A stretch of 64,000 nt of DNA, taken from an uncultured Armatimonadota bacterium. GTDB taxonomy: Bacteria > Armatimonadota > Armatimonadia > Armatimonadales > Armatimonadaceae. Made by a program: the position numbers and the translations under genes. The stretch is taken from the NCBI GenBank assembly GCA_903910385.1, contig CAIVZM010000067.1, positions 1 through 64,000 of the forward strand. The letters are read 5' to 3'. The notes below the pieces were generated by a model. It saw only the letters and a list, made by a program, of their open reading frames with translations. It ran no database searches and had not been told where the DNA came from. Positions 3,127-30,677 of this stretch are shown here, in pieces. Position 1 is the stretch's first letter; every line of letters starts with the position of its first letter.

Positions 3127-3130
3127 CAAT

Positions 3131-3167
3131 AAAAAAAGTCGGGGCGGTCAGCGCCCCGACTTTTTCT
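3131..3167. terminator. Bidirectional Rho-independent terminator
   Basis: A 10-bp stem (3137-3146 with 3152-3161, core GTCGGGGCG/CGCCCCGAC) with a 5-base loop is flanked by an A run on the left and a T run on the right. It sits between the convergent thioredoxin-fold gene and pafA, so it can serve both. Confidence 0.9.
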
Positions 3168-3184
3168 TTGCTACTCTGCGAAGC

Positions 3185-6102: not shown

Positions 6103-6117
6103 CAGGACAGAATACGC

Positions 6118-7854
6118 TCAGTGTACCGTCTGGTCGCCTTCTTGCAGCGTGACCATACGGTCTACCGTAAGATTTTTAAAAGTATCTATTTTTCCGCTGG
6201 GCCATTTTACCGTCAACGAATCTACTTTCGTATCGTTTCCCAGTCCAAAATGCACGCGCTTATCTGAGGCGGAGAAATAAGACCCGCAAGTCTGGCTGGC
6301 GCGTAAGAAGGTATGCGCCCCTGCCTTCGCCGTCAGCATGGCGCCGTACCCATTGCGATTGGACTGTTTGCCGATCAATTGCACGGTGAGCCAGTGTCCA
6401 TTACGCTCACTTTCATTATGAAGCAGCAGCGGATGACCACTGGAATCCACCACCAGAACGTCCATTTTACCGTCGTTGTCATAATCGCCGGTTGCCAGAC
6501 CGCGACCGATGATCAACTGATTAAAAACAGAAGACGACGGGCTAACATCATCGAAGCCGGGATGAGCGCCACCGGAATTTCGGAACAGTTGAATCGGTTG
6601 CTTGAAATCCTGACCGGGGTTGATATCATGGACCGCCGCCTGCACATGCCCGTTTGCGATAATGATATCCAGCCAACCATCGTTATCGAAATCGAAAAAC
6701 TTACACCCGAACGCGACATACTGTGATCGCATCGGGTCAAAACCGGTCGACATTCCGATGTCACTAAACTGCCCTTCGCCGTTATTGCGGTAAAGGGAAC
6801 GCGGTTCATTGGCGAATGTGGTAACGAAAATATCTAGTCGTCCGTCGTTATCGTAATCGCCGCAGTCTATTCCCATCCCGGCGTGCGAATTGCCGTCTCT
6901 GTCATAGGCGACGCCAGAAAGGACACCGATGTTTTTTGCAGGAGTGGAATTCTTGCTCTGAGACAAATCGAACAGGTCGCCATACATGCGGTCATTTGCC
7001 ACCAGCAGATACGGTGTCCGAGCGTCTTTGAGATTGGCGAAAAAGACGCCTAATCCCTTCCCGTTAGAAGTGTCCAGACCGCGTTCTTTGGTTTCATCGG
7101 TAAAGCGTCCCGTTCCATCGTTTCGGTAAAAGGCGCCTTTTAACGGCGCATAATCTTCTGGCCCACAGGAGACGGAAACGCCTTTACCAGAGGTGCAGAG
7201 TTGCGGTGAGACATCCGGACCAAAGACGACATAGTTCGCGATATACAGATCAAGTTTGCCAGAACCCGGCGATGTCTCAGCAAAAGCGCAGGAAGTTCCC
7301 CACGGTTGTGGCTTCACACCAGATTGCTCGGTGATATCCCGGAAGTTCTTCCCTGCTTCGTTATGCAGGAGTATCCCCGTCTGATAACCGCTGATGTAGA
7401 TATCGTCATAGCCATCCCCATCTATATCCCCCACGGCGCAACCCAAAAATTGCCCCTTCAGAGCGGATAGACCGGTAGTCGCCGTAACATCAATGAATTG
7501 ACCTTTGCCATTGCCCTGATACAGAGCGGGGTGGGTACCGATGAGAAGAATATCGAGATTATTATCGTTGTTGAAATCGAGGAAAGCGCATCCGTTACCT
7601 ATCGTCTGGAGAATGTTCGGAGTTCGTCCTCCCTCAATCTGCCAGACGTAGTTCAAACCGGCTTCTCTTGCCGTATCGCGGAAGTGGACTCCAGGGTATG
7701 GAGCGGGACGATTCAATCGTCGGTTTCCGCCCATAACGATCATTCGGTCTCTGCCCTGCGCTCGTCCCGGAGTGTGAGTTGGACGGCATCCCGAAATGAG
7801 CGCAAGGGCTAAGAGATTCACAACAAGGAAGACTATTCCGCCAGTTTTCCGCAT
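6118..7854 (-). CDS. CRTAC1-like lipoprotein with FG-GAP/VCBS repeats and ASPIC/UnbV domain
   Basis: This 578-residue protein begins with a lipoprotein signal peptide (LISGC lipobox, Cys at about 23). It then carries a run of FG-GAP/VCBS calcium-loop repeats, seen as DFNNDNNLDIL, DIDGDGYDDIY, DYDNDGRLDIF, DFDNDGWLDII and DYDNDGKMDVL, typical of seven-bladed propellers. The C-terminal 80 residues match the ASPIC/UnbV domain (NRNGYGA, then SASDKRVHFGLG and VKWPSGK). Such proteins are common in Planctomycetes and Armatimonadota; the role is unproven, possibly surface binding. It is cotranscribed with the small lipoprotein upstream (17-base gap) and the propeller-like gene downstream. A paralogue lies at 50224-51963. 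Confidence 0.9.
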   Translation of the reverse strand: MRKTGGIVFLVVNLLALALISGCRPTHTPGRAQGRDRMIVMGGNRRLNRPAPYPGVHFRDTAREAGLNYVWQIEGGRTPNILQTIGNGCAFLDFNNDNNLDILLIGTHPALYQGNGKGQFIDVTATTGLSALKGQFLGCAVGDIDGDGYDDIYISGYQTGILLHNEAGKNFRDITEQSGVKPQPWGTSCAFAETSPGSGKLDLYIANYVVFGPDVSPQLCTSGKGVSVSCGPEDYAPLKGAFYRNDGTGRFTDETKERGLDTSNGKGLGVFFANLKDARTPYLLVANDRMYGDLFDLSQSKNSTPAKNIGVLSGVAYDRDGNSHAGMGIDCGDYDNDGRLDIFVTTFANEPRSLYRNNGEGQFSDIGMSTGFDPMRSQYVAFGCKFFDFDNDGWLDIIIANGHVQAAVHDINPGQDFKQPIQLFRNSGGAHPGFDDVSPSSSVFNQLIIGRGLATGDYDNDGKMDVLVVDSSGHPLLLHNESERNGHWLTVQLIGKQSNRNGYGAMLTAKAGAHTFLRASQTCGSYFSASDKRVHFGLGNDTKVDSLTVKWPSGKIDTFKNLTVDRMVTLQEGDQTVH

Positions 7855-7871
7855 AATCGACGCTACCGGAA

Positions 7872-8171
7872 TCAGGGAGTCGCTGCCGGTGCGGGTGCAG
7901 GAGAAGCGCCGGGCATGGGCGGAGGAGGAGTCCCTCCCCGGATCGGCGGGACAGGCATGCCACCACCGAATACCTTACCTTCTTGCCATTGCTTATTGTT
8001 GTAGGGAAACAGATTAGGATAACCGGGTGGCGGTGGAACGGTATCGCCATCACCGACCAGTTTAGGCTTGCTGGAGCAACCCATTAATGAGCTTACCGTT
8101 GCTAAAACAAGAACCAGAACGCCAAAGCGTCTTGAGGAGACAGCCCGGGATCGTCCGTTTTGGTGAAACAT
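7872..8171 (-). CDS. Small proline-rich lipoprotein
   Basis: About 99 residues from the ATG at 8171. A positively charged start (HQNGRSRAVSSRR) and a hydrophobic helix end in LMGC, a good lipobox. The mature part is short and rich in Pro, Gly and Ala (PPPPGYPNLFPYNN, PPPPMPGASPAPAPA). The in-frame ATG at 8225 is rejected because it lies inside the perfect palindrome 8201-8233 that terminates the upstream pseudopilin gene. Small lipoproteins of this kind follow pseudopilin genes in this window twice (compare 53080-53271). Function unknown. Confidence 0.75.
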   Translation of the reverse strand: MFHQNGRSRAVSSRRFGVLVLVLATVSSLMGCSSKPKLVGDGDTVPPPPGYPNLFPYNNKQWQEGKVFGGGMPVPPIRGGTPPPPMPGASPAPAPAATP

Positions 8172-8200
8172 ACTTTTATGGTTTCCCTTTACAAAATCAG

Positions 8201-8233
8201 GTATTCGCGTGGCGGAATCCGCCACGCGAATAC
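8201..8233 (-). terminator. Perfect 16-bp hairpin after the pseudopilin gene
   Basis: The sequence 8201-8216 is the exact reverse complement of 8218-8233 (core GTATTCGCGTGGCGGA). It begins 27 bases past the pseudopilin stop. On the minus strand only CTGATTTT follows, so it may be a weak terminator or an mRNA-stabilising structure separating the abundant pseudopilin message from the lipoprotein genes. Confidence 0.7.
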
Positions 8234-8259
8234 GATGTTTTCCGAGAGGATTCAGAAGA

Positions 8260-9162
8260 CTATTCGGATGCCGCGGTCCAGTACTTCATGGACGTCTGCT
8301 TGAAGTACTTCACATGACCATCGGCGAAGAGGTAGTCCGCGCCGTTGTTGTGCATGCGGTAGACACGGTCGTGGCAGTAGCCGCTGATACCATTACAGTT
8401 CGATCCATCTTCGGTCTTGATATCGAAGACAATCGAGCTGATCGGGGATTGTTTTGCCTGCTTGATGTTCTTACGAGCATCGTAACCGGCGGGCAGGCTA
8501 CCTTCAGCCGGATAAGCCGTGGCTTCCTGTACCAACGGAGAGGTAGAAGATGCATATCCTGCATTGTAGTAGGGACCAAGTCCGATGTTGCCTTCGCCCA
8601 TGATAATGGTTTCAGACGGATGGGACAGTTTCGCCAGCGGAGAGCCATGCGAACCCTGCTCATCTTCCGGGAAGACCGGGTCGTTGTGCATATAGCCCTG
8701 GTTGATGCCATATCCAGTGGTTCCCCAACCGCTCGACCAACCAACACTGATGTCTACCAGAACCGCTTCAACAGACGGGCAGGTAAATACGGCATGGTTA
8801 CCCTTGCTCTTGTCCAGGTTGCGTCCGCCACCGGTCTTAACATACGGGTAGATGAAGTCAGGCCAGTAGCCACCCCAGGGAGTTCCGGTGTAGATACCGG
8901 GAGCGCAACCGGGGACGCTGACATCGCCGACCGTACCCGTTTTGGAGCAGTTCGCCTGGTACATGGGAGGCATGGTCTCGTCATAGTCCTGCGCATACAT
9001 CATGAAAGCGATACCCAGTTGCTTCATGTTGGACTGGCACATGGCCTGACGAGCCTTTTCACGCGCTTGCGCAAATACCGGGAAAAGAATAGCGGCAAGA
9101 ATTGCAATGATAGCGATAACGACGAGCAGCTCAATGAGCGTAAACCCACGAAGACGTTTCAT
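8260..9162 (-). CDS. DUF1559-type pseudopilin (type II secretion-like, prepilin N-terminus)
   Basis: This 300-residue protein starts [15 protein letters not shown], a type IV prepilin peptidase site with Phe at +1 and Glu at +5, followed by the long helix ending in [13 protein letters not shown]. This continuation is a hallmark of large pseudopilin-like families in Armatimonadota and Planctomycetes. The body has the SNMKQLG and YAQDYDE elements and the C-terminal FADGHVKYF motif of the H-X9-DG type. It is predicted to be processed by prepilin peptidase and displayed or assembled in the envelope; its exact role is unknown. GGAAGG lies 6 bases before the ATG, and a near-consensus sigma-70 promoter lies at 9326-9354. 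A paralogue is at 54679-55503. Confidence 0.92.
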
Positions 9163-17904: not shown

Positions 17905-19707
17905 ATGACAATAAATCCTCCCAAGAACCGATTGCACGGCGGGCTGCCGAAAATTGGGATTCGCCCCACGATCGATGGACGCTATGGCGGCGTCCGCGAG
18001 TCGCTGGAAGATATTACGATGAATCTGGCGAAGACGACCGCCGCGCTTATCACCGCAAATATCCAGCATGCCTGCGGACTTCCCGTGGAGTGCGTGATTG
18101 CGGATACGTGCATTGGCGGAGCGGCGGAAGCGGCGGACTGCGCTGAGAAATTTCGTCGGGAAGGCGTTGGCGTCGCCATTACGGTGACGCCCTGCTGGTG
18201 CTACGGTTCGGAAACCATGGCGCTGGAAGGCGATATTCCAACTGCTGTCTGGGGCTTCAATGGAACGGAGCGTCCCGGCGCGGTCTACCTCGCGGCGGTG
18301 TTGGCGGGGCATAACCAGAAGGGCATTCCGGCGTTCGGCATCTACGGGCGCGATGTGCAGGATGCCGGAGACACGTCGATCCCGGACGATGTCGCCGCCA
18401 AAATCCTTCAGTTCGCCCGCGCCGGACTTGCCGTAGCCACCATGCGCGGAACTTCCTATCTGGCGATGGGCGGGGTCTCCATGGGAATCGCCGGTTCGGT
18501 CGTAGACCCATCGTTCTTCGAGGATTTTCTGGGGATGCGCTCCGAGGCGGTGGATATGACCGAGTTCGTGCGCCGCATGGACAAAGAAATTTATGACAGG
18601 GACGAATATACTCGTGCTCTGATATGGGTGAAGGAAAACTGCCCGGAAGGCAAGGATTGGAACGCCCCCGAAAATGTCCGATCGCGCGAGAGTAAGGACA
18701 AAGAATGGGAAGACTGCGTCAAGATGGCGCTAATCGCCCGTGATCTGATGATCGGCAATCCTAAACTGGCGGAAATGGGCTACAAAGAGGAAGCCCGTGG
18801 TCATAATGCGCTGGCAGGCGGCTTTCAGGGGCAGCGGCAATGGACCGACCACTTCCCGAACGGCGACTTTCTGGAAGCGATTCTCACGTCTTCCTTCGAC
18901 TGGGACGGCATCCGCCAACCCTACATGGTCGCTACCGAGAATGACGCTTTGAACGGCGCCTCCATGCTCTTCGGGCATCTGCTGACCGGCGGGACAGCGC
19001 AGCTTTTCGCCGATGTTCGCACCTACTGGTCGCCGGACGCCGTGCGTCGCGTCACCGGTTATACGCTGGAAGGCGCGGCGGCGGGCGGCATTCTGCACTT
19101 GATCAATTCCGGCCCCGCCGCTCTGGACTGGACCGGACAGCAGGAAATCAACGGTAAGCCCGCCCTGAAGCCGTTCAACCATATCACTCCGGAAGAAGCG
19201 CAAGCCTGTCTGAAAGCTACCGAGTGGGGAGCCTCTATCGGCGAGTATTTCCCCGGCGGCGGTTGGTCTACCGACTTCACGACACGTGGCGGAATGCCCG
19301 TGACTATGTTCCGCGTCAATCTGGTCAAGCATCTGGGGCCGGTTCTACAAATTGCGGAAGGTGTCACCGTGGAACTGCCGGAGCGTGTCCATCAAATTCT
19401 CGATGAGCGCACCAACCCGTCCTGGCCCACCACCTGGTTTGTCCCGAATGTCACGGGCGTTGGCGCGTTCACGGACGCCTACTCCGTCATGCTGAACTGG
19501 GGCGCGAATCACGGAGCCATCTCCTACGGTCACATCGGCGGCGACCTCATCACCCTCGCCTCTCTCTTGCGTATCCCCGTCGAATTCCACAACGTCCCCG
19601 CCTCCCGAATCTTCCGCCCTTCCGCATGGATCAGATTCGGCTCCGGCATGGACGAAGTTGGCGCGGATTATCGGGCGTGCGCGGCATACGGGCCGTTGTA
19701 TGGGTGA
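17905..19707 (+). CDS. fucI: L-fucose isomerase
   Basis: FucI converts L-fucose to L-fuculose and also D-arabinose to D-ribulose, using Mn. The 600-residue length equals the family norm. Recognisable stretches include [20 protein letters not shown] at the N-terminus, [28 protein letters not shown] and the C-terminal domain ending in [15 protein letters not shown] and [15 protein letters not shown] 17905 has GGAGA 10 bases upstream. No fuculokinase, aldolase or transporter lies beside it, so the gene stands alone and the rest of the pathway must lie elsewhere. A GC-rich hairpin follows. Confidence 0.95.
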
Positions 19708-19717
19708 TTGGGGTGGA

Positions 19718-19759
19718 TTTGCCCCCCTAACCCCCCATTAATGGGGGGAGGGGGGCAAA
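19718..19759. terminator. Large GC-rich palindrome after fucI (terminator or REP-like)
   Basis: Centred on ATTAAT, the sequence carries CCCCCC/GGGGGG arms doubled on each side (GCCCCCC TAA CCCCCC ATTAAT GGGGGG A GGGGGGC), flanked by TTT and AAA. The long symmetric form is more like a dispersed REP-type palindrome than an ordinary terminator, but it would stop or stabilise both the fucI message and the opposing transcript. Confidence 0.7.
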
Positions 19760-20048
19760 ACCCTCTGGCGTCGCGGGGACGGCGGCGGAGAGGATTTCTT
19801 CGAAGGTGAGGACGGCGAGAGGCACGGCGTGGGCGGAGGGGATCAAAGATTTGCCGGAGGCGGAATCGTTGAAAACTTCTCTGATTTGCGGTCGCACTCG
19901 GAGGCGGGCGGCGCGTTGCGGGAAAGGTTAGCCCAAGCGCGGTCAAGGGCGCGTTCGTCCTCTTCCGTCAGTACAGGAGGGCGCTCCACGGGTTTCTTGG
20001 CTTCGATTTCGGTAAACGCCGCATTAGTTCCTCGTGCCGCTTACTCAT
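19727..20048 (-). pseudogene. Frameshifted small gene downstream of the ribbon-helix-helix gene
   Basis: An ATG at 20048 overlaps the upstream stop as ATGA and opens MSKRHEELMRR. Sensible coding then appears in a second frame (FTEIEAKKPVERPPV, LTEEDERALDRAWANLSR) and then in a third (QIREVFNDSASGKSLIP, LAVLTFEEILSAAVPATPEG), which ends inside the palindrome at 19727. Each piece is stop-free and has protein-like composition only in its own frame. Two single-base indels would restore one chain of about 105 residues. The ATGA overlap suggests a former partner of the upstream gene, as in toxin-antitoxin or two-gene modules. I recognise no domain. Sequencing error is an alternative to decay. Confidence 0.45.
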
Positions 20049-20482
20049 ATAACAACCACCTGATTCTCGTCAAGGTAATCCGCTAACAATTGGCTCATCG
20101 GTGAGTTAGACGATAAGTCGAATTCGCCCCGAACTTGATAGCCGTTCGCCTTCCACCACACCGCGCCGCCGGGGCGCTGCATCAGCGTATTGGTGTCGAT
20201 CACGCCCACAAAGCCGTCCGATTCCTCTGCGTTATCCTCGTTCAGAAGAAGCGCGGCGCGATGGGGAAGGTCAGATTCGGCTAAGCGGGCGTCTTCTTCG
20301 GCGAACGAGGCGGCATGGGAGCGGATCGCCTCGCTGTCCCAGACAGGTTTGGGTCGTTTGGCGCGAAGGGCGCGGCGCAATAACCGCACTGCCATTTCAT
20401 TGGCGGGAACGCCTTCCCCGGCGGAAAGTCGGGTCAGTTGGTCGTTGGTGCGCTCGTCAACGGTGAGAGTAAGGGTAGGCAT
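20045..20482 (-). CDS. Ribbon-helix-helix-like protein, antitoxin-like N-terminus
   Basis: About 145 residues from the ATG at 20482, supported by AAGGA 6-7 bases upstream; the in-frame start at 20524 runs into the preceding intergenic space without a ribosome binding site. Residues 1-40 (MPTLTLTVDERTNDQLTRLS, then ANEMAVRLLRRAL) look like a ribbon-helix-helix DNA-binding domain of the antitoxin type. The C-terminal part (GFVGVIDTNTLMQRPGGAVWW, QVRGEFDLSSNSPMSQLLADY) is unrecognised. The next gene overlapped its stop by ATGA but is frameshifted. A DNA-binding autoregulator or antitoxin is the likeliest reading, with moderate confidence. Confidence 0.65.
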   Translation of the reverse strand: MPTLTLTVDERTNDQLTRLSAGEGVPANEMAVRLLRRALRAKRPKPVWDSEAIRSHAASFAEEDARLAESDLPHRAALLLNEDNAEESDGFVGVIDTNTLMQRPGGAVWWKANGYQVRGEFDLSSNSPMSQLLADYLDENQVVVI

Positions 20483-20563
20483 GGATTTTCCTTGTCGTAT
20501 TGTACCGCTTCGGCTTCCTGACACTCGGTGAGGACGCCCATGAGTGGAGCCTGGAGCGTGGTT

Positions 20564-21883
20564 TTATTGTCGCTCGTCCGGGAGTCGCCAGAGCAGGACG
20601 CGAGATTCAAAAACAGGACCGAAAGGAGTAATACTCTGGACGCTAGCAAAGGTACGACCATCCGACGCGAAGGTGCAACGACGGATCACCGTTCGATGGG
20701 GTAGCCGCAACATCTTATTGCAGCCGAGAGACTTGATGCCTTCTTCGTCAACAGGCGTCAGATTCAGGAAGCGACCTCTTGCCCTTGCAACGATGGAACC
20801 GCCAGCCAGAAGCGCATCGGTGGTTTCACCGGTATGTTGCGTCGGCAAATCGATATGATCCAGTTCTGCTACCATTTCACCAGAAGCGACATCAAAAATG
20901 TTCGTTCGCGCTACTCGCTTCGTCGCTTTCGTATAATAATTGGAAAAACCCCATTGAGACATACTCAGGGAGAGACGGTTACCTTCAGGCGAAAAGGCGG
21001 CGACAAGATCATCGCAATTTGAGGTTTTCTCCTGCGGGAGAAGGAATCGTTGGCGCAATTCCCCTGTAGTCACATCCCACAATTGTCCCTCACCGGGGAT
21101 TCCAACAAGCAAAAAACGCCCGTCTGGAGAGAATAAGAGAGCCGTAATTTTCGATTTTTCGTGAGAGCTACTATTGCTTCTCTTCGATGAATCAATCACA
21201 TTTTGTGGTAAGTAAGGCGTTATTTCTCGTACAAGAAAACGTTTCGCAGTTGGGTCTTGTTTCTTCATTTCTTCGATTCCTTTAGCCAAATCGTTAATTA
21301 CCTGGCGAACTTTTTGGCGTTCCGCATCGCCATCGGCAGTAAAATCGTAGCAGTTTCGTCTTCCATCCCCGGAAGTAATCAGGGAATGCTCCGCTTTGAC
21401 TACCTCTGTGGCGAGGATAGTGAATAATGGGACATCATGGTCGGGCTTATCGGTAAAACCTTCGCCATACACGCTGTTCAGATAGGGATATCCGCTTCGA
21501 AAGGCTTGCTTCTTTTGATCGTCTTCCCAATCCAACAATTGATCTTTGAAAACGCGATGCGCAGGGGCAGTAGACCGAATCGCGTTTTTCACATGCTGAA
21601 AGAGTTGAGGGACACGTAACCTTCCATGCTGTTTGTATGACACCAGATGGCGGCATTTCTCGGATGCAGGCTTGCCACAATAGGGACAGTGGGCGGTATT
21701 ACAGCAGACATGCTTGTCGCGTTTTTGATACCATTGTGACTGTTTTGTATCGTCATCTTTCAAGGGACGGTTGCAAACGCTACACTTGAAGGTAGCCAGC
21801 GCGCGGAAGGCGTTCTCAATATCCTCATCGGAGATTTCCTGCGCGGTCGTCTTAGATACGGATGATTTTTGATTTTCTTTCAT
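20564..21883 (-). CDS. Cysteine-rich zinc-binding N-terminus fused to WD40-like propeller, unknown
   Basis: This 439-residue protein has no signal peptide. Residues 34-79 hold a Cys/His cluster: CSVC (34-37), C60, C61, CPYC (66-69), C77 and H79, which can make two zinc-ribbon/treble-clef-like sites. Residues about 80-235 are charged and helical. The C-terminal 200 residues carry WD40-like strands (ITALLFSPDGRFLLVG, GEGQLWDVTTGELRQRFLLP, DLVAAFSPEGNRLSLS, TNIFDVASGEMVAELD), too few for a full seven-blade propeller. It follows the VWA and MoxR genes on the same strand and shares an inverted-repeat element with the MoxR gene upstream. The role is unknown; a cytoplasmic recognition or adaptor protein is possible. 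Confidence 0.75.
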   Translation of the reverse strand: MKENQKSSVSKTTAQEISDEDIENAFRALATFKCSVCNRPLKDDDTKQSQWYQKRDKHVCCNTAHCPYCGKPASEKCRHLVSYKQHGRLRVPQLFQHVKNAIRSTAPAHRVFKDQLLDWEDDQKKQAFRSGYPYLNSVYGEGFTDKPDHDVPLFTILATEVVKAEHSLITSGDGRRNCYDFTADGDAERQKVRQVINDLAKGIEEMKKQDPTAKRFLVREITPYLPQNVIDSSKRSNSSSHEKSKITALLFSPDGRFLLVGIPGEGQLWDVTTGELRQRFLLPQEKTSNCDDLVAAFSPEGNRLSLSMSQWGFSNYYTKATKRVARTNIFDVASGEMVAELDHIDLPTQHTGETTDALLAGGSIVARARGRFLNLTPVDEEGIKSLGCNKMLRLPHRTVIRRCTFASDGRTFASVQSITPFGPVFESRVLLWRLPDERQ

Positions 21884-21919
21884 TTGTGGTTCCTCGACAC
21901 AATTACTGCAATCATCGCA

Positions 21920-21938
21920 TACACTTTAATCAGTGTAA
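21920..21938 (-). promoter_or_regulatory. Inverted-repeat element upstream of the Zn-WD40 gene (copy A)
   Basis: Minus-strand sequence TTACACTGATTAAAGTGTA contains arms TACACT/AGTGTA around six bases. It ends 36 bases before the ATG at 21883. A 19-base copy differing at four positions lies upstream of the MoxR gene (24574-24592). A common transcription factor site is inferred. Confidence 0.5.
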
Positions 21939-21976
21939 TCATTCCGGAAAAGCAATCTTTGCCTTTCTGGATATAT

Positions 21977-23302
21977 CTATCCCTGATCCGGCGTCATTCG
22001 TACAGTCCGCGCCCAGGATGGGGTTGGGGGGCAAGCATGATTTCCGTTTGAAGACGTGATCAGGATAATGACCCGATCAACGCCTGACGGCGGCGACTCC
22101 GGCCAGGGAGTATAGCCATCGGTGATAACGACCATGATATCTGGGATTGGACGAAGGCTCTCACTCGCACGAAGCGCCACCCCCATATCCGTCCCACCTC
22201 CCCCCTTGAGCAGAGGGCGGATCTGACGCGGATCAAAAACCCGCTTGCAGGCATGAACCGATGCATCTACCGTAAATACCGTGACTCCGTCACAGAGTCC
22301 CTGCGCTTTGAGAATGCCCGCCGTCTCACTGACCGCCTGTGTCAGATCTTCCTCCCTCATACTTCCGCTGGTGTCGATCGCTACCGCCACCTTTGCTACC
22401 GGTTGGACAAGACCGGGAACGACAAAATCGGGCAACGACGCCTGACGGCGCCCCGGCTTGCTATAGCGATAGTTGGTGCGTCCGCTGGTTTCCGCTAACG
22501 CACGACGAACGGAGGCTGCCAGTTCCTGACGCCAGTTTACCGTCGGCGGTTTTAGTATTTTGTCCGCCCAACGCTCCCAACCACCAGGGATTGAACCGCG
22601 CCCCTGCTTTTTCATCTGCTGATGAATCTCCTGAGCGACAGTGCGATGTATCAGGATCGCTTCGCCATCCGGTAATCCCTTGATTCCGGCAGCGTTTGCG
22701 GTTTTTTCAAACGCCTCCGTGTGTCCATGAGCGCACGATCCGCAATTCCCCTCCCCTACTCCCGTTTCGGAAGTTTTCGGCTCATCCCCCGCTTTACAAT
22801 GCGTTTTCTGTAAATGCAGATAATACTCTTCGGCAGTCAGTTTATCAGGGCATTCGATGGTCGCTGGCAGGACAGGATTACCCGGCAGAGGCTGCCCTTC
22901 TGCAATGAGATCATCATTGATTTCCGCATCCGCCGCCAGATTCCAGAGAAAGGCGGAATGTTCATCCCCGTTGACTTCAGCGGGAGCGCGCCCGGCATGG
23001 TCACGGAGCAGATGGCAGACCTCATGATAAAGAACGGCGGACGTTTCCGGTACGCTCCAGTGATAGGCAACCTGATCGGGATTGTAGTAAAGACGCCAGC
23101 GGGAGTCCACCGCCATTGTCTCCACTTCTTCGGTCGGTATCCGATGCATCGCCCAGAACGCGGCGGTCAGGTAGGGAAATTCCAGAGAGAGTTTCAAAAG
23201 AGCGCCGGACAATTGCGTTTCCGCAATGGTATTTCGCGTCGCTACGGACTGTTGATTTTTATACCCGAGGGTTTGTGTCTTTGGAAGAGTGGTTGGCATC
23301 AT
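21977..23302 (-). CDS. Metallopeptidase-like HExxH plus VWA domain protein (DUF2201-type), MoxR partner
   Basis: The 441-residue protein has an N-terminal putative metallopeptidase region with HEVCHLLRDH (H93, E94, H97) and a later NLAADAEIND helix that could supply the third ligand. Its C-terminal half is a von Willebrand A domain with a complete MIDAS: D310-x-S312-x-S314 (DTSGS), T371 (GGGGTD) and D395 (ITDGY). A Cys/His-rich linker (CGSCAHGH, 187-194) lies between. Proteins of this architecture are regularly encoded beside MoxR AAA+ ATPases, as here (20-base gap). AGGAG precedes the ATG. The MoxR-VWA pair is expected to remodel or activate a target protein; whether the HExxH site is a protease is unproven. 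Confidence 0.85.
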   Translation of the reverse strand: MMPTTLPKTQTLGYKNQQSVATRNTIAETQLSGALLKLSLEFPYLTAAFWAMHRIPTEEVETMAVDSRWRLYYNPDQVAYHWSVPETSAVLYHEVCHLLRDHAGRAPAEVNGDEHSAFLWNLAADAEINDDLIAEGQPLPGNPVLPATIECPDKLTAEEYYLHLQKTHCKAGDEPKTSETGVGEGNCGSCAHGHTEAFEKTANAAGIKGLPDGEAILIHRTVAQEIHQQMKKQGRGSIPGGWERWADKILKPPTVNWRQELAASVRRALAETSGRTNYRYSKPGRRQASLPDFVVPGLVQPVAKVAVAIDTSGSMREEDLTQAVSETAGILKAQGLCDGVTVFTVDASVHACKRVFDPRQIRPLLKGGGGTDMGVALRASESLRPIPDIMVVITDGYTPWPESPPSGVDRVIILITSSNGNHACPPTPSWARTVRMTPDQG

Positions 23303-23322
23303 TAATCTCCTGAATCAGCTTT

Positions 23323-24546
23323 CTAAGCGCCGATCATCCCAGCAGAGCGAAGAACCGGAAGAAAATAGGACAGTTCCTGACGGGGTAGTAGTAAATCTTC
23401 ACGGTCGCCACGGGCGCTCGCCAGCGATCGCGCCGCCGCCGCTGCAATATCCGCGCCACCTGCTTCCGCCGCTCTGGAAAGGATTTCCCAGGCAGCTTTC
23501 CAACGTCCAGCAGTTAATCCCGCGCCGATGGCGCGTTGGACAACGGCGGACAAAATCGCATAGGCTTGATCGGCTCTCTCCGGGTGAACATAAGATTTTG
23601 GGTTGGCAAGCAACCCCTCCGGATCCGGAAGATCAAGTTCGCGAACCCACTGACAAAACTCCAATGCGGCGCCTTCCCCCACACAGCCGGAAAGTAATGG
23701 GAGAATTCGCGAGATTGAACCTTTCGCGCCGCCCATAATGCGACTCGCATAGTCCCACGAACGTGGCGAAGGCCACGCGCCTCCACGTCGAGATTCCTCC
23801 GCCGGGAGAGCGAGCAGAAGTTGCGGTCGGGCGCGAAGGAAGGACGCTACCAGAGAGCGAGCTTCCGCCCAAGCGGCAGCCGACACGCCATTGCCCTGAA
23901 ACGAAAGGGTCGGAGGAGTTCCCCAGTAGCCGGGAAAAGATTCCACCCAATCCGTCGGAGAAAGAGCGAAGGTATGGTGCAGGAAACGGTTTGCCAATGG
24001 TGGCGCAAGATCCCAACCGCCAGCTGCCATTTCCGGCGGGTTTGCGGCGGCGAGGATGGTCACTTTTTCAGGATCCATTTCCAGATCGCCGAAAGCCCGG
24101 TCGACAACCGCACGCAACAGCGCCGCCTGGACAGCAGGAGGTGCAGTTGTCAGTTCGTCCAGAAAGATCACCCCACCGTCCCGAGCCGCCTCCTGAGCGA
24201 ATCGCGGCGGGGCGAATGTGACGCTCGCTTCGCCATCGTTCCCTTTACCGACGATGGGCAGCCCTCCGAAGTCGGCGGGTTCTCGAAGGGAAGCGATGAC
24301 AGTCCAGCAGGGGAGCTTTCGACGTTTCGCCCAGGCGGTCACCGCCGCGCTCTTACCGACTCCTGGAGGACCCCAGAGCAGGAGAGGGACTCGCGCATAC
24401 GTCGCGCTATCCAGAATATGGTCCAGAGGATGCCCTGTGGGCGCTCCTTCCGCTGTTGACGATGATTTCGCGGATCGCGTTCGCGGCGTTGTAGAAACGG
24501 CGGATCGCTTCGCCCCCTGTTGTCCAATGACTGTTCCAATTGACAT
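23323..24546 (-). CDS. MoxR-family AAA+ ATPase
   Basis: About 407 residues from ATG 24546, chosen over GTG 24555 because GAGG lies just upstream of the ATG. A Ser/Thr/Arg-rich leader of about 35 residues precedes the AAA+ core. Walker A is GPPGVGKS (59-66), Walker B is GVIFLDEL with D130/E131, sensor 1 is ILAAANPPE, and an arginine-finger region follows (LANRFLHHTF). The C-terminal 180 residues form a helical lid and extension. MoxR ATPases act as chaperone-like machines with VWA partners; the partner is the next gene downstream. A 19-bp inverted-repeat element lies 27 bases upstream of the start. Confidence 0.88.
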   Translation of the reverse strand: MSIGTVIGQQGAKRSAVSTTPRTRSAKSSSTAEGAPTGHPLDHILDSATYARVPLLLWGPPGVGKSAAVTAWAKRRKLPCWTVIASLREPADFGGLPIVGKGNDGEASVTFAPPRFAQEAARDGGVIFLDELTTAPPAVQAALLRAVVDRAFGDLEMDPEKVTILAAANPPEMAAGGWDLAPPLANRFLHHTFALSPTDWVESFPGYWGTPPTLSFQGNGVSAAAWAEARSLVASFLRARPQLLLALPAEESRRGGAWPSPRSWDYASRIMGGAKGSISRILPLLSGCVGEGAALEFCQWVRELDLPDPEGLLANPKSYVHPERADQAYAILSAVVQRAIGAGLTAGRWKAAWEILSRAAEAGGADIAAAAARSLASARGDREDLLLPRQELSYFLPVLRSAGMIGA

Positions 24547-24573
24547 ATTCCTCACCTCAGCGCCTTTCTTGAA

Positions 24574-24592
24574 TTCACTTTCACCAGTGTAA
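24574..24592 (-). promoter_or_regulatory. Inverted-repeat element upstream of the MoxR gene (copy B)
   Basis: Minus-strand TTACACTGGTGAAAGTGAA matches copy A (21920-21938) at 15 of 19 positions, including CACT-N6-AGTG. A weaker relative, ATATACTGGAGTCAGTGAA, lies directly before the start at 25337 and may be partly a ribosome binding site. Confidence 0.5.
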
Positions 24593-24659
24593 ACAAATCG
24601 ATTTTTTTAGCCGCCCGAGAGCAGCTACAGCAATATTGTCCTATATTGTAATTCTGGAT

Positions 24660-25337
24660 TCACCAGACTGGAGCGAAAACTTTCTGTCTGCCGCCGCCTT
24701 CTACAGACTCCGAGTCCAGCGCCGCCAGCGCTCCAGCTTCCGCGAGCCGGGTCAATCGGTTACTGGCGGCGGCGATGGAGAGTCGGGCGGCAGGCAACTG
24801 TTCTATTAATTCTCGTGCGGTCAATTTACCCAATCGCCGTGCCACCTGATACGTCTCACGCATCTCCGGACCGACATCACCAAGAAGGATCGGACTTTCT
24901 GTTTGTGACACTACGCTTGCCTGAGCGGAACCGGAAAGCCAGACAGGCACAAAGATTTCACGGATTTCCAACAGCGTCTTGAGATTGGCTTCCAGTTCTT
25001 CGCCCACATTCTCAAGGACGAAAAAACGTTCGGGAAACTCACGTGCGGCACGGCGACGCGCCAGGCGAACTAGAGATTCGTCGCCGAACGACACATCCAT
25101 AATCCGCACCAGGCCGCAATCGACCGGGAGTATGCTACGGGGCGGCATCGCCTCCATCGCGGCAATCAAAACGGGCAAAAGCCGCTTCCCTTCGCTCCTG
25201 CCGACCAGAATCAATGGCGATTCCAGAGGGGCATTCCCGCCAGTAATGATTGTCGAACGCCTATCCACTGCATCAAAGTCCTGTGTCAAAACTAGTGGGG
25301 AGTCACGGTTCAGGTAGGTTGAGATAGTATCGGTCAT
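24660..25337 (-). CDS. STAS-like plus winged-helix regulator-like protein
   Basis: About 225 residues from ATG 25337; an in-frame TTG at 25382 and GTG at 25346 are alternatives. Residues about 40-135 (SPLILVGRSEGKRL, SILPVDCGLVRIMDVSFGDE, ERFFVLENVGEELEANLKTL) have the strand-helix pattern of STAS-like DUF4325-type domains. The C-terminal 55 residues (LGKLTARELIEQLPAARLSI, ASNRLTRLAEAGALAAL) look like a winged helix-turn-helix ending in a basic wing (GGGRQKVF). It starts 58 bases after the STAS-GHKL gene stops. A DNA-binding output of a partner switch is a plausible reading; the domain calls are by eye. Confidence 0.65.
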   Translation of the reverse strand: MTDTISTYLNRDSPLVLTQDFDAVDRRSTIITGGNAPLESPLILVGRSEGKRLLPVLIAAMEAMPPRSILPVDCGLVRIMDVSFGDESLVRLARRRAAREFPERFFVLENVGEELEANLKTLLEIREIFVPVWLSGSAQASVVSQTESPILLGDVGPEMRETYQVARRLGKLTARELIEQLPAARLSIAAASNRLTRLAEAGALAALDSESVEGGGRQKVFAPVW

Positions 25338-25395
25338 CGCTTTCACTGACTCCAGTATATTCGATTTATGAGAGATTGTCAAATGGACATGATTA

Positions 25396-26394
25396 TCAGG
25401 TAGGAGGAGGAATACGTTTCCGCAACGTCAGGCAAATCATGACGCCGGGAATGCCAGATGAGGAAGCATAGGCGTTGGTATCGATGCCTCCGGATTCGTT
25501 CGCCTTGATGCGAATCCGGGCTGCGCCGGAGCGCATATGTAGCGTCGCCCGATAACGCGGAATTTTATCGACGATGCTCCATAATCCCAGTCCTCGATCC
25601 GCATCGCTGACGCCGGAGACGCCGCGTTTGAGCGCCTCGCTTATCGCCTGTGCATCCGTTCCCTGCGCCAGCGCCGGATAGGCTCGGGAAAGACTGGAAC
25701 GGATTCCTATGCCATCGTCGCCGATGCCTATCATGACGAATGGTTCCTGCTTCGGCTTCCTGATTACCTGAGCGGCGACCAGTCCGAGAGCGTCCGAACC
25801 AGCATGGTCGATAATATTGTGGCAAGCCTCCGATAGGATCATGCTCAGATTAGCGACATCGCTATTGTCATACTCGAGGTGACGGTGTAACAATCGGGCG
25901 ACCTGCCCGGATACTCGCCCGACCGCTCCGGCGACATCTGCGCTGCTGTTCAGCGTAGTGAGGGTCAGCAATGTCTCCGATTGAAGTTTTTGCTCCTCCG
26001 TCGGTGGCGTCGGCGGCTTCGCCCAATCGCAGGCTATCGCTTCCCGATCGAAATAATCATACGCCCCCATCCACTTGAGCCAGTAATGAATTCGGACACG
26101 TGCGCTCTCCGGCGGGGGCGGGATAACGCGCAAGGAACCGCCCTCACTCCCGCCAGACCGATTCCGATTCCGCTGAATCCCACGTAGAGCGGCGAGGAGC
26201 CAGACCATGCCCGAAGGAGTGGCATACGTGACATCGGAAAGATCCACAGTCAGTGGCGAAGGGTCATTCTGCGCCGCCGATAAGGCATCCATGAGGGCAT
26301 CCATCTCATGGCTATGCAATGTTTTTTTGGTCAGCGTTCCCGCATTCACTAGAGAAGCAGATGACAAAGATTCCGCCATTGGATCAACATTCAT
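25396..26394 (-). CDS. STAS domain fused to GHKL ATPase (anti-sigma/partner-switch type)
   Basis: The 332-residue protein combines two usually separate partners. Residues about 20-125 form a STAS-like domain in which DLSDVTYATPSGMVWLL corresponds to the antagonist phosphorylation loop, with S61 as candidate phospho-acceptor. Residues about 140-325 are a GHKL (histidine-kinase-like) ATPase: N box SEACHNIIDHAG (E189, N193), G1 box GIGDDGIGI (D226) and G2 box RGLGLW. RsbW/SpoIIAB-type kinases phosphorylate such STAS loops, so self- or trans-phosphorylation is possible. AAGG is 7 bases before the ATG. It begins a run with the winged-helix, MoxR and VWA genes and lies 66 bases after the cytochrome gene. 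Confidence 0.8.
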   Translation of the reverse strand: MNVDPMAESLSSASLVNAGTLTKKTLHSHEMDALMDALSAAQNDPSPLTVDLSDVTYATPSGMVWLLAALRGIQRNRNRSGGSEGGSLRVIPPPPESARVRIHYWLKWMGAYDYFDREAIACDWAKPPTPPTEEQKLQSETLLTLTTLNSSADVAGAVGRVSGQVARLLHRHLEYDNSDVANLSMILSEACHNIIDHAGSDALGLVAAQVIRKPKQEPFVMIGIGDDGIGIRSSLSRAYPALAQGTDAQAISEALKRGVSGVSDADRGLGLWSIVDKIPRYRATLHMRSGAARIRIKANESGGIDTNAYASSSGIPGVMICLTLRKRIPPPT

Positions 26395-26460: not shown

Positions 26461-27918
26461 TTACTTACTCACCGTGCTGCGCCCCGGTTCGGCGCGGAAT
26501 GTCGCAAGCGGAGCGCCGGTCACAGAATTCCAGATGTATACGACGCCATCATACGAGCCGACAGCCACACGCTTCGAGACAGGATCATAGTCGATAGAGT
26601 AGAGCCACTCACTCCCCGCTTTGTAGCTCCGGATTTCTGCGAGCGATGCGACGTCGAACTGCTTCACAACGCCATCGGCGGAGGCGGCGAAGACCTGCCC
26701 GTCTCGTACCGTCAGCGCAAACGTCTCACGGGTGAATCCGGTGGGAATATAGCGCGTTTTGCCTTCTTTAGCGAACCGTTCTTCCATATCACCGGCATCA
26801 CCGCTTTCCGCTTTTGCCTGAGTAGGGTCCCAGATTTGGACCCATTTCCCTCCGCCCGCACTATAGGCAAGGGGAGAATCAGAAGCGAATTGCACCGCAT
26901 ATACCGGGGCTTGCCCCTGATACTTGCCAATCTGCCGACTGTGACCGTTGTAGGTGGTATATAGCGCTCCAGTAGCAGCTTCGTAGACTTTGACCGTCAT
27001 ATCACGGCTTGCGCTTGCCACGAACTGTCCGTCGGCGCTGAAACTGACCGAGGTCACCCAGTCGGAATGCACTCTGCTCGCCCATCGCGTTTCGCCGGTG
27101 CGGGCGTCATAGACCCGCACACTGCCATCGGCGGCTCCTGCGACAATACGATCGCCCTCCGTATTGAATGCCGCCGACAGAGCTATATCAGGGAAGGTAT
27201 CGAGGACGCCCGCTCTGTTTCCCGTCGAGAGGTCGATGCGAGAAAGCTCGCCGTATTCACCGGGAACGCCACCCGCGACCAGCATGCTTTTGCCGTCCTT
27301 ACTGTAGGCAATTGCCTGAATGCGTTGTGGCAGTCGCTGAAAACGACGACGTAACGCGCCAGTTCGACAATTCCAGAGGGTCACTTCATTGTAGCCGCCG
27401 ATAGCGACCTCCTCACCGCCGGGAGCGAACGCCAGAGCCATTATCGGGGTCGCGACACGGTAGACCGTCGGAGCTAGTGGATGTTCACGCGGTCCCATCA
27501 GACTTTTGAGCGAAGCGGCAGGGTCTTTACCATCGAATTTCGCGCCCTCTGCAATCCATCGCCGGACCAGACTAACTTGCACAGCAGAAAGCGCGTCGTC
27601 GCTTTTTGGCATTCGCAACGATTCCACTTTCGAGATGATGCGCTGGTACAGTTCCGACTCTTCAGGCTTAGCGGGCTTGATGATTGCGGCGCCGGAAGCC
27701 CCATTTTTCATCAGATACTGAAAGGTGTGCGCCCGGTAGCCACCCAGATTCGCTTTATCCCCATGGCAACCGACGCATCGTTTCAGCAGAATTGGCGCGA
27801 TTTCACGCACGAAACTGACCTCGCTACGGGCGGGAGACGCCAGCGTCGCGCACCATAGCGTCACAATCGTCACAACCATCATAGCGGATCTGACACGGAC
27901 GGCGAAATTTTCTGTCAT
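26461..27918 (-). CDS. PSCyt1 cytochrome domain plus WD40 propeller
   Basis: An exported protein of about 485 residues with a signal peptide (VVTIVTLWCATLASPARS), a planctomycete cytochrome-c-like domain with heme motif CVGCH and LRMPKSDD, then at least six WD40-like repeats (IMALAFAPGGEEVAIGG, VTSVSFSADGQFVASASRD, SIDYDPVSKRVAVGSYDG). Cytochrome plus propeller suggests a periplasmic electron-transfer or substrate-sensing role; no enzyme activity is established. ATG 27918 is chosen; a TTG at 27936 would overlap the upstream stop as TTGA and is equally plausible for coupled translation. It is the third gene of the DUF1501-DUF1549/1553 group. A paralogue without signal peptide is at 61400-62734. 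Confidence 0.87.
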   Translation of the reverse strand: MTENFAVRVRSAMMVVTIVTLWCATLASPARSEVSFVREIAPILLKRCVGCHGDKANLGGYRAHTFQYLMKNGASGAAIIKPAKPEESELYQRIISKVESLRMPKSDDALSAVQVSLVRRWIAEGAKFDGKDPAASLKSLMGPREHPLAPTVYRVATPIMALAFAPGGEEVAIGGYNEVTLWNCRTGALRRRFQRLPQRIQAIAYSKDGKSMLVAGGVPGEYGELSRIDLSTGNRAGVLDTFPDIALSAAFNTEGDRIVAGAADGSVRVYDARTGETRWASRVHSDWVTSVSFSADGQFVASASRDMTVKVYEAATGALYTTYNGHSRQIGKYQGQAPVYAVQFASDSPLAYSAGGGKWVQIWDPTQAKAESGDAGDMEERFAKEGKTRYIPTGFTRETFALTVRDGQVFAASADGVVKQFDVASLAEIRSYKAGSEWLYSIDYDPVSKRVAVGSYDGVVYIWNSVTGAPLATFRAEPGRSTVSK

Positions 27919-27932
27919 AGCGAAATACGCTT

Positions 27933-30677
27933 TCAATGCTGAAATAAAAACTCCGGCGAATTGATGATACTCCAGGCAAGATCAATGCGCCTTTCCGAAC
28001 TTCCCTTGACCGACGCTTCGGCGCTTTGCAGATAAGACAACGCCGCTGAAGATTCCTGAGAAGTCGGGAACCGACAAAACCCCGACAGATACAACTCCTC
28101 CACCATGCGCTTGTCATCGAAAGTTGCATAGCGGGAGACCGCATCCTGCGTCATTTTGCTCACGGTTCCGCCATTCAGCAGTTCCAACGCCTGCAATAAA
28201 GTGGGCGCATTTTGCCGTTCGCAGGTACATGCCGTCTGACGCGCCGGTTGTCCGAATGTCGAAGTGAATCGTGACTCCTCGGGATAGGGTCGTTGTGTCG
28301 CGTACTGCATTCGGTTTGCGAGCCCATCTTGTTTTTTCACTAGCGACACATAGTCGGCGTCTCCGTTCAGATACAGGTTGTACAGCGTTTTTCGGTGTCG
28401 CTCTGTCCGCTTACCGGCGGGAATAGAGAGAACTTCCTGCTCCAGAAGATCATGTAGTTCTGCGGCGTCTTTGGGCGACCGTTGCACGGTGGGAATATTG
28501 CTGAGTTCCGTTATCCGCTCGGTCAGTTTTGTCCGTTCTTCCTGCGATTTAGGTTTGGCGGACGAAATCGCTTTTTCTTTTTCCGCCAACCATCCGGCGT
28601 AGTTTGCATCACGGGAGGCGATACGCGCGTCTATTTCTTTCTGGATTCGTTCCAGTTCCGGGTTGAGGGTGGAAGGCGGACCGAGAACGCGGGTGGCGAC
28701 TCCAATCGCGTCCTGAATCTGCTCCGCCGTCAACAGTCGGACTCTGGCATGGGAAAACAATGAGTCGTCGGTCTGGTTGAACCGATTCGTTTTGGAAGAA
28801 CGCTGATAGGTCTGACTGTTACAGATCAGTCGGAGGATACGCTTACGGTCGTATCCGCTTTTGACAAATTCGTTCGCCAGCATGTTCAGCAAGGGATCGT
28901 TTGACGGAGGGTTGGAAGAACGGAAATCATCCACCGGTTCTACAATGCCCCGCCCCATCAGAGCCGCCCACATACGATTTACCGCTACCCGTGCAAAATA
29001 GGGATTTGCAGGGTTCGTCAGCCATTGTGAGAACCCGATCCGTCGGTCTGCGGTCACAGGTTGGCGGATATCCTTCGCTCCCCAGGGAGCCATGACTTCT
29101 TTCGTGGTCGGAAGCAGCGATTCGCCCTGACCTGCCAGTTTGATTTCGCCACGATTTTCACCAATTCGTGCAAAGACGGCTGCGATACTGTAATAGTCGC
29201 GTTGCGTCCAGTTCTCGAAGGGATGATTATGACATTTGGCGCATTCGACACGAGTTCCCATGAAAATCTGCGATGTCATTTCCGTTCGTTCTTCCATAGA
29301 AGGAATCGCCAGAAAATAGTTCGCCGCAGGGGTTTCCGTGGTGTCTCCGGTAGCGGTAAGAATATCCCGTACGAAAGCGTCATAGGGGCGATTTTTCCGG
29401 AAGGAGTCGACAATCCAGTTGGCGAATCCCTCCGCCCTACCGTCCCGGAGTCGCCCCGGTGTGATTCGCATCAGGTCACCGAGTTTCATCGCCTGGAACC
29501 GGGCGTATTCCTCTGTCTCCAGTAGATAGTCCACCAATCGGGCGCGTTTATTCGGGGAGCGATCCTGTAAGAACTGACGCGTATTTTCCGGCGATGGCAA
29601 CATACCGGTCAAATCCAGCGAGACACGGCGCAAAAACTCCTCATCTCGACAGGTCTCGGAAGGGAGATATTGTAATTGCTTCAGCTTTGCATTTACCAGA
29701 GTATCGACAGCATTGTTTTCCGCCGGGCTTTTCCACACGAAGCCGGGTACATTCTCGACTACCGTAAAATGCAGGGACTGGAGTTTGTCCAGATAGCGGA
29801 CGCTGATCGCCGCCTGCCCACGACTGCGACCCGTTACCAGACCATCCATATCTACGGCAACCACATTCGCGGAGGAAGTGTCATACGTTGCGATTGCTGT
29901 AATATCACGCACGGAACCGTCTGAATAGTATGCGAGAACGCTCAACTGTTGCTTGATTCTCGGCTCTTGCAAAACGCGATTTTCGCCGGGCGTCAGAACG
30001 ATTTTCGTGCATTCCACCTTGGGTAGATCGACGCTCGCGCCATCATAGATCCATTGTTTCAGAATTTTGTAGGAGGCGTCCGTCTTGCGCAGTCGCTTTC
30101 CGCCGACATGGGGAATTTCCAGCAACGGTTTCTTCAGCATCAGGCTCTCAGCGGGATCCATCACATTGACCCGGCGGTTGAATCCATCCCGCGTCAGCGA
30201 TATTCGATCAATATTCGGGTCATAACCGAAGAGGGAAAGAGAAAATCCACCTTTGCCATGCGGCGAACCGTGACAGGAACCCGTCGCGCATCCTTGCTTG
30301 GTCAACGTCGCCAGCGTTTCGAACTTGAAACGAACCGGGTCCGGCTTTTTGAAGTTCGCGACAGTGACCGGAATCTTTGCGGTCTTCCCCTCCGCGCTTA
30401 CCTCCACGATGGTAGCGCCATCGCCGGTCGGGATAATGCGACCGTCTTTGACTGTCGCCACCTTCGGATTGTCCACCCGATAGGTCGCGTTCCGGGTCAG
30501 GTCGTAGGGACCCTGCGGAGATTCGCCGGTCACCACCAGTTGCCGGTAGGAACGCTGACTATCGAGCTTGATTTCGCGGGGCGAAACATTCAACGGTTTT
30601 GCGACAGGAGCCGCCTCCAGCATTCCCTGACAGAGGGTAAGCGTAACGATTCCCCAAATGAAATGACAAAAACGCAT
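27933..30677 (-). CDS. DUF1549/DUF1553 protein with Ig-like and cytochrome-like domains
   Basis: A secreted 914-residue protein: signal peptide, a BIG2-like Ig domain (about 35-108), a cytochrome-like segment with CATGSCHG, where the heme motif is C-x4-CH instead of C-x2-CH, followed by GKGGFSLSLFGYDP, a second BIG2-like domain (about 225-305), DUF1549 (about 320-530, with DEEFLRRVSLDLTG and CAKCHNHPFENW) and DUF1553 (about 565-905). A charged helical insertion lies inside DUF1553 (about 680-760). Such proteins are abundant in Planctomycetes next to DUF1501 genes and have been linked to polysaccharide breakdown by co-occurrence, but the activity is unknown. Cotranscribed with DUF1501 upstream (38-base gap). 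Confidence 0.9.
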   Translation of the reverse strand: MRFCHFIWGIVTLTLCQGMLEAAPVAKPLNVSPREIKLDSQRSYRQLVVTGESPQGPYDLTRNATYRVDNPKVATVKDGRIIPTGDGATIVEVSAEGKTAKIPVTVANFKKPDPVRFKFETLATLTKQGCATGSCHGSPHGKGGFSLSLFGYDPNIDRISLTRDGFNRRVNVMDPAESLMLKKPLLEIPHVGGKRLRKTDASYKILKQWIYDGASVDLPKVECTKIVLTPGENRVLQEPRIKQQLSVLAYYSDGSVRDITAIATYDTSSANVVAVDMDGLVTGRSRGQAAISVRYLDKLQSLHFTVVENVPGFVWKSPAENNAVDTLVNAKLKQLQYLPSETCRDEEFLRRVSLDLTGMLPSPENTRQFLQDRSPNKRARLVDYLLETEEYARFQAMKLGDLMRITPGRLRDGRAEGFANWIVDSFRKNRPYDAFVRDILTATGDTTETPAANYFLAIPSMEERTEMTSQIFMGTRVECAKCHNHPFENWTQRDYYSIAAVFARIGENRGEIKLAGQGESLLPTTKEVMAPWGAKDIRQPVTADRRIGFSQWLTNPANPYFARVAVNRMWAALMGRGIVEPVDDFRSSNPPSNDPLLNMLANEFVKSGYDRKRILRLICNSQTYQRSSKTNRFNQTDDSLFSHARVRLLTAEQIQDAIGVATRVLGPPSTLNPELERIQKEIDARIASRDANYAGWLAEKEKAISSAKPKSQEERTKLTERITELSNIPTVQRSPKDAAELHDLLEQEVLSIPAGKRTERHRKTLYNLYLNGDADYVSLVKKQDGLANRMQYATQRPYPEESRFTSTFGQPARQTACTCERQNAPTLLQALELLNGGTVSKMTQDAVSRYATFDDKRMVEELYLSGFCRFPTSQESSAALSYLQSAEASVKGSSERRIDLAWSIINSPEFLFQH

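Follow-up and report, generated by a model that had tools for sequence, protein, structure and literature searches.

Introduction

Two described systems bear on the locus reported here. In the CapK/CapS system, CapK, a kinase composed of helix-turn-helix (HTH), STAS and GHKL domains and activated by single-stranded DNA (ssDNA) upon DNA damage, phosphorylates the repressor CapS, made of a STAS domain and a winged helix-turn-helix (wHTH), and thereby derepresses an adjacent immune operon (Chambers et al., EMBO J 2026, PMC13373217). A MoxR ATPase paired with a metallopeptidase-vWA protein has been described in jumbo phages, where it was proposed to aid virion assembly (PMC7824862), and genes 24 and 25 are core genes of N4-like phages (PMC4193335). 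MoxR-vWA pairs are usually inferred to work by peptide capture at the metal-ion-dependent adhesion site (MIDAS) and ATP-driven remodelling (PMC7159879). Here we analyze a 64,000-nucleotide stretch of DNA from an uncultured Armatimonadota bacterium (contig CAIVZM010000067.1, termed the window), in which genes for a STAS-GHKL kinase and a STAS-wHTH repressor stand next to a MoxR-metallopeptidase-vWA pair and a gene for a protein with a zinc-cysteine module and WD40-like repeats (Zn-WD40). We regard it as likely that these genes form a stress-inducible, probably anti-phage operon in which a CapK/CapS-type switch drives the MoxR-vWA pair and the Zn-WD40 protein.

Results

A five-gene unit is conserved in two genera

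The original prediction, made from the sequence of the window, had combined six genes. All six open reading frames were confirmed with their coordinates, all on the minus strand, and five of them, spanning 20564-26394, constitute the conserved unit (Table 1). The identical five-gene order was found in another genus of the family (G009, locus L030, 7238-12860), the protein identities to the window being 63% for STAS-GHKL, 64% for STAS-wHTH, 77.5% for MoxR, 64% for the vWA protein and 45% for Zn-WD40. The flanks of the two loci differ: in G009 the upstream neighbor is an FGE-sulfatase-like gene and the downstream one a YspA-like gene. The recurrence of this gene order in G009, together with three operators at the corresponding promoters of both genomes, is more than would be expected by chance. 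The full unit was detected in 2 of 291 genomes of the phylum, both belonging to one family. The sixth gene, predicted to encode a ribbon-helix-helix (RHH) protein (20045-20482), was rejected as a member together with its broken neighbor, since it carries no significant operator and does not follow the Zn-WD40 gene in G009, an absence limited by the end of that contig about 1.4 kb past the Zn-WD40 gene.

Table 1. Genes and predicted operators of the five-gene unit in the window.
Feature	Position	Strand	Basis or remark
Predicted CapK/VapK-type kinase, STAS + GHKL in a single chain, 332 aa, no N-terminal HTH	25396..26394	-	Pfam, hhalign, residues
Predicted operator 1, TATACTGGAGTCAGTGAA, before capS	25342..25359	-	overlaps the -10 TATACT of a near-consensus promoter, TTGACA-17-TATACT
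Predicted CapS-type repressor, STAS + winged HTH, 225 aa, candidate phospho-acceptor Ser83	24660..25337	-	PDB match, hhalign, alignment
Predicted operator 2, TACACTGGTGAAAGTGAA, before moxR	24574..24591	-	motif scan
MoxR-clade AAA+ ATPase, 407 aa, GPPGVGKS, FLDEL, NRF	23323..24546	-	Pfam AAA_5, phrog_1297
Putative metallopeptidase-vWA co-chaperone, 441 aa, HEVCH + complete MIDAS	21977..23302	-	DUF2201_N + DUF2201, phrog_1314, AlphaFold2
Predicted operator 3, TACACTGATTAAAGTGTA, arms perfectly palindromic, before the Zn-WD40 gene	21920..21937	-	motif scan
Zn-cysteine module CxxC...CCx4CPYCGx6CxHL + WD40-like repeats, 439 aa	20564..21883	-	weak WD40, G009 orthologue

The first two genes encode a CapK/CapS-type kinase and repressor

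Pfam yielded sub-threshold matches to STAS_2 and HATPase_c_2 for the kinase and no match for the repressor. Both proteins were compared, profile against profile, with the CapK and CapS references of E. roggenkampii (WP_001567866.1 and WP_001567865.1; L264) and a Vibrio relative (L265). The kinase matched the CapK profile over 249 columns spanning STAS and GHKL (hhalign probability 97.7, E 2.1e-12), with N193, H197, D226, G228, G230 and the RGLGL motif kept as in CapK: N193 aligns with the catalytic asparagine N218 of CapK, and G228/G230 provide the glycines of the ATP lid. The repressor matched the CapS profile over STAS and wHTH (probability 95.2, E 2.9e-8), and its S83 aligns with the phospho-acceptor S54 of E. 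roggenkampii CapS. The description of this protein as STAS-like with a winged helix can be made more precise, a solved relative being detectable: its best PDB matches, 9z71 (E 0.0068) and 9z72/9z73 (E 0.016), are named as CapS structures (PMC13373217). We conclude, from these alignments, that the two proteins are homologues of CapK and CapS over both domains of each.

In mobile elements, tblastn gave no match to STAS-GHKL in plasmids and phages; among viral contigs, STAS-GHKL had one weak match and STAS-wHTH none. However, phrog_3364, a phage protein family of unassigned function, aligns with nearly all of the kinase (1.8e-22), suggesting that phages may carry CapK/VapK-like kinases. Separately, three genomes of the same family encode CapS-like proteins preceded by perfect operators (L172, 8778-9437; L173, 2214-2882; L178, 2716-3384) in which DVAV replaces DxSF, so that the phospho-acceptor serine is gone, and for which no kinase was detected; they are possibly unphosphorylated repressors.

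One type of operator precedes three transcription units

Comparison of the intergenic regions revealed an inverted repeat lying over the -10 element before the repressor gene and likewise before the next gene. In each of the two genomes carrying the five genes, a conserved predicted operator, TWYACT-N6-AGTGWA, precedes capS, moxR and the Zn-WD40 gene. When the window was scanned with TWYACT-N6-AGTGAA, allowing at most one mismatch, it was detected in three places, which are operators 1-3, and nowhere else, with five matches over both strands against 0.45 expected. Operator 3 was not among the sites used to build the motif. Furthermore, TWCACT-N6-AGTGAA, built from the other genomes alone, had the same three sites as its sole matches with at most one mismatch. 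The 4.47-Mb genome contains four exact matches to TAYACT-N6-AGTGWA, three of them being the operators of the unit; the fourth (C82:8587-8604), found within an open reading frame close to the end of a contig, was discounted as probably due to chance.

The operator also precedes repressor homologues in 9 of 10 genomes (p about 0.003-0.007 each), and the tenth (G014) displays a variant half-site, TCACA-N6-TGTG, before the repressor and before the following operon, a pattern that was fitted post hoc. It was not found before the kinase gene, the vWA gene or the lone Zn-WD40 paralogues described below. In the CapK/CapS system, both capS and the downstream operon are preceded by operators with another half-site (PMC13373217). 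The positions observed here are thus those expected from the published design, with one extra site in the present case. This extra operator, located before the Zn-WD40 gene, indicates that the latter belongs to the regulon.

Kinase and repressor co-occur in the phylum and precede defense-type genes elsewhere

Strong kinase matches were found in 8 of the 291 genomes and repressor matches in 12, with both present in 7. The repressor thus occurs in 7/8 genomes with the kinase as compared to 5/283 others (Fisher p about 2e-10, phylogeny being ignored). Since the two genes are unlinked in three of the co-occurring genomes, their association is not explained by linkage alone.

Two other tightly linked CapKS-type pairs exist in the phylum, and both stand ahead of defense-type genes. 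In G014 (L031, G014:C1:4180000-4198000, 2576-9043) the genes behind the pair encode a cNMP-binding cyclase and a Pycsar cyclase (2.7e-115), then an E1-E2 fusion (3.5e-132) together with a JAB protease (5.5e-41). This is a Pycsar cyclase accompanied by ancillary genes like those of CBASS type II, under apparent CapKS control; the CapKS-associated operons listed in PMC13373217 do not include Pycsar. A second Pycsar cyclase (1725-2432) and a PCTIR-type TIR gene (3-353) lie alongside in the same locus. In G086 (L139, G086:C179, 1392-13111) the pair, with operators at 2477-2494 and 3157-3174, is followed by several unknown genes, and the operon ends with a 1392-aa protein combining a Cas4-like nuclease with an SF1 helicase, which is Mokosh-like (1e-35).

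The MoxR and metallopeptidase-vWA proteins form an independent, widespread pair

The MoxR protein matches AAA_5 in Pfam (1.9e-9), and the vWA protein carries a putative metallopeptidase domain (DUF2201_N, 3.9e-40) followed by a vWA domain (DUF2201, 2e-16). The vWA protein had been predicted to possess both HEVCH and a full MIDAS, and its 24 relatives bear this out: H93 and H97 (HEVCH 93-97), H102, N121 and D125 are invariant, as are D310, S312 and S314 (DTSGS 310-314) and T371 of the MIDAS, while D395 is nearly so. An AlphaFold2 model built with these relatives was fairly confident (pLDDT 82.6, pTM 0.62) and displays a vWA fold; its Foldseek matches in the PDB were mainly vWA/MIDAS proteins (Ro60, MDN1, NorD), and its best viral match, to a predicted structure, was full-length (TM 0.73/0.80). 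The putative zinc-peptidase domain carried on the vWA chain suggests that captured proteins are cut.

Both proteins match phage profiles over most of their length (MoxR to phrog_1297, 2e-52; vWA to phrog_1314, 2.3e-47), and tblastn detected relatives of the vWA protein in N4-like phages (LUZ7 'N4 gp25-like protein'). Many annotations of the phage metallopeptidase-vWA family (phrog_1314, N4 gp25 type) read 'HNH endonuclease', apparently a propagated annotation error.

Using a MoxR profile, we collected 70 cellular loci from many phyla. The MoxR-DUF2201 pair is kept in 64 of them, and neither STAS genes nor the Zn-WD40 gene were found in any of the 70 within the locus stretch examined. The conservation of the STAS and Zn-WD40 genes with the MoxR-vWA pair, on which the original prediction depended, therefore extends to the two genera above and not to these other loci. 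This distribution marks the MoxR-vWA pair as an old module in its own right and the five-gene unit as a local assembly. CapS-type and Zn-WD40 genes were not found in six genomes carrying a related MoxR either, an empty result that carries little weight. The closest MoxR proteins outside the family come from Chloroflexi metagenome-assembled genomes: the window protein is 58-70% identical to those of Chloroflexi (70% over 122 residues) as compared to 39-49% for others in its own phylum, which suggests horizontal transfer. Among 43 neighbor proteins of the MoxR pair, Pfam identified HEAT (3), LRR (2) and LRV (2) repeats, which supports the idea that partners of this pair are generally repeat proteins only in part.

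The Zn-WD40 protein is part of a small family

The Zn-WD40 protein gave a single weak WD40 match in Pfam (3.2e-4), and its G009 orthologue keeps the Cys and His residues of the motif. Within the family, which is small, the Zn-cysteine module is conserved and the propeller-like C-terminus is variable. Lone paralogues keeping the zinc motif were found in the genome of the window (L171, G000:C63, 8788-10026) and in G007 (L169, 4134-5597; L170, 4199-5368), without operators and without MoxR; in viral contigs, the Zn-WD40 protein had no match. These proteins make up an undescribed, putatively zinc-binding and propeller-like family within this bacterial family.

Neighboring genes

For the RHH-like open reading frame, Pfam gave no family match, RHH and PIN included, and inspection of the open reading frames in that region of the window disclosed no intact PIN frame. 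A VapBC-type toxin-antitoxin module, composed of an RHH antitoxin and an intact PIN toxin, was therefore rejected; the RHH-like frame and the broken frame following it (19668-20524) are probably the remnant of a decayed toxin-antitoxin system. On the other side, the unit adjoins genes (26461-30677) for a PSCyt1 + WD40 protein and a PSCyt2/PSD1 (DUF1549/DUF1553) protein with Ig-like domains, which are not conserved with the unit in G009.

Discussion

A model of the switch and its output

The data argue strongly for the regulatory part of our proposal. In the resting cell, a dimer of the STAS-wHTH repressor would occupy the three operators, which overlap or abut promoters, and would silence moxR-vwa, the Zn-WD40 gene and the gene of the repressor itself. 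A signal, which in the case of CapK is ssDNA arising from damage or phage, would activate the STAS-GHKL kinase, which would phosphorylate Ser83 of the repressor; the latter would leave the DNA and the output proteins would be made. The signal-gated protein-remodelling or defense system envisaged by the original prediction is thus supported, and its gate can be specified as a CapK/CapS-type kinase-repressor switch acting through three operators. As for the output, we infer from the protein families that the MoxR ring and the metallopeptidase-vWA protein could work together to remodel and cleave proteins at the expense of ATP, the Zn-WD40 protein serving them as recognition adaptor or as effector. 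The purpose of the operon is probably immune, since the two other linked CapKS-type pairs of the phylum precede defense-type genes and, likewise, 348 of 443 capKS pairs in the published survey stand ahead of known or predicted immune operons (PMC13373217). More specifically, and as a tentative proposal, the locus might represent an undescribed immune pathway in which the CapK/CapS-type switch turns on the MoxR/metallopeptidase-vWA pair and the new Zn-WD40 family chooses the target, making it a defensive cellular counterpart of N4 gp24/gp25.

Several observations weigh against this proposal. The N-terminal HTH of CapK is missing from the kinase, which starts about 25 residues ahead of its STAS domain (deleting this HTH from CapK was without effect in the original study, PMC13373217), and the ssDNA-stacking aromatic residue (W68 in CapK, F54 in VapK) aligns beside Leu26 of the kinase, in a part where the alignment is weak. 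The latter means that a trigger shared with CapK is not established, and for both reasons we name the pair CapK/CapS-type rather than CapK/CapS proper. Two of the three sites in the window helped to define the motif, which makes the search with it partly circular. The complete unit is known from just two genomes of one family, and the single-sequence model of the Zn-WD40 protein is unusable (pLDDT 36.7). Finally, no PADLOC defense model matched the output genes specifically, weak generic AAA matches being all that was obtained, and the phage homologues of the MoxR-vWA pair are predicted to serve virion assembly and not immunity (PMC7824862).

The last two points also favor an explanation in which the switch is real and its output is a housekeeping or stress-repair chaperone-protease, involved like RavA-ViaA or CoxD/E in the assembly or turnover of large complexes, rather than an anti-phage system. 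Characterized MoxR-vWA pairs indeed work in complex assembly (PMC7159879), and the CapKS authors allow that some CapKS outputs may be general stress responses (PMC13373217). We nevertheless judge this explanation unlikely, given the very patchy distribution of the unit, the Chloroflexi-like MoxR with its suggestion of transfer, and the defense-type genes behind the other linked CapKS-type pairs. It is very improbable that chance or ordinary operon drift placed a CapKS pair beside a MoxR-vWA pair and an unrelated Zn-WD40 gene: each part does occur alone (the STAS pair without MoxR in L031 and L139, the MoxR pair without STAS in the 70 loci, and the lone Zn-WD40 paralogues), but the five-gene order is conserved despite different flanks, and the presence of one operator type at all three transcription units in both genomes, and not at the lone paralogues, largely refutes such a juxtaposition. 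Membership in the beta-propeller subsystem (bpMoxR) of the published MoxR-vWA ternary conflict systems is hardly tenable, for although MoxR, vWA and a WD40-like protein occur together and a bpMoxR match exists, the latter is sub-threshold (23.5 bits, below the 27-bit cut-off), the P-loop reads GPPGVGKS and not GxxxTAKS (PMC7159879), and the vWA protein has an N-terminal metallopeptidase in place of a C-terminal propeller.

If the stress-inducible, probably anti-phage operon that we favor is confirmed, it would join two separately known things, the CapK/CapS switch, so far associated with CBASS, Bub, Bil, Thoeris IV and similar operons, and the widespread MoxR/metallopeptidase-vWA pair. The pair would then be a stress-induced effector, offering a direct handle on a core pair of N4-like phages without experimentally assigned function, and the CapKS logic would be extended to Armatimonadota with a concrete operator.

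Comparison with known systems

The resemblance to CapK and CapS (PMC13373217) lies in a STAS-GHKL gene directly followed by a STAS-wHTH gene upstream of an operon, in the conserved serine and catalytic asparagine, and in palindromic operators before capS and the downstream operon. The window departs from that system in its kinase, devoid of the N-terminal HTH and of an evident ssDNA-stacking aromatic, in its CACT/AGTG half-site with 6-bp spacing (TTAA for CapS), in its third operator, and in its MoxR, metallopeptidase-vWA and Zn-WD40 output, which is not among the listed CapKS-associated operons. The kinase of VapKSC likewise lacks an HTH (PMC13373217); however, VapS has a short C-terminal region in place of the wHTH and inhibits a PIN nuclease, whereas the partner in the window has a wHTH and operators. 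With the jumbo-phage pair (PMC7824862) and N4 gp24/gp25 (PMC4193335; phrog_1297/phrog_1314) the window shares an adjacent MoxR and vWA protein with N-terminal metallopeptidase, supported by long profile matches, but here the pair is cellular, controlled through a kinase-repressor switch and accompanied by a Zn-WD40 gene. The MoxR-vWA ternary conflict systems (VMAP, iSTAND, FtsH, beta-propeller; PMC7159879) similarly combine a MoxR + vWA core with a variable third component; they differ from the window, which has a metallopeptidase N-terminal to the vWA domain and an external CapKS-type transcription switch, and the iSTAND, VMAP and FtsH types were rejected since none of the five genes has a Pfam match to such a third component.

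The composition of the locus had been put forward as undescribed. This does not hold for its halves, the switch following the CapK/CapS design and the MoxR-vWA pair being known from jumbo phages, and it does hold for their joining and for the Zn-WD40 protein. We conclude that the parts are known and that the literature searched describes neither their combination nor the three-site operator nor the Zn-WD40 partner.

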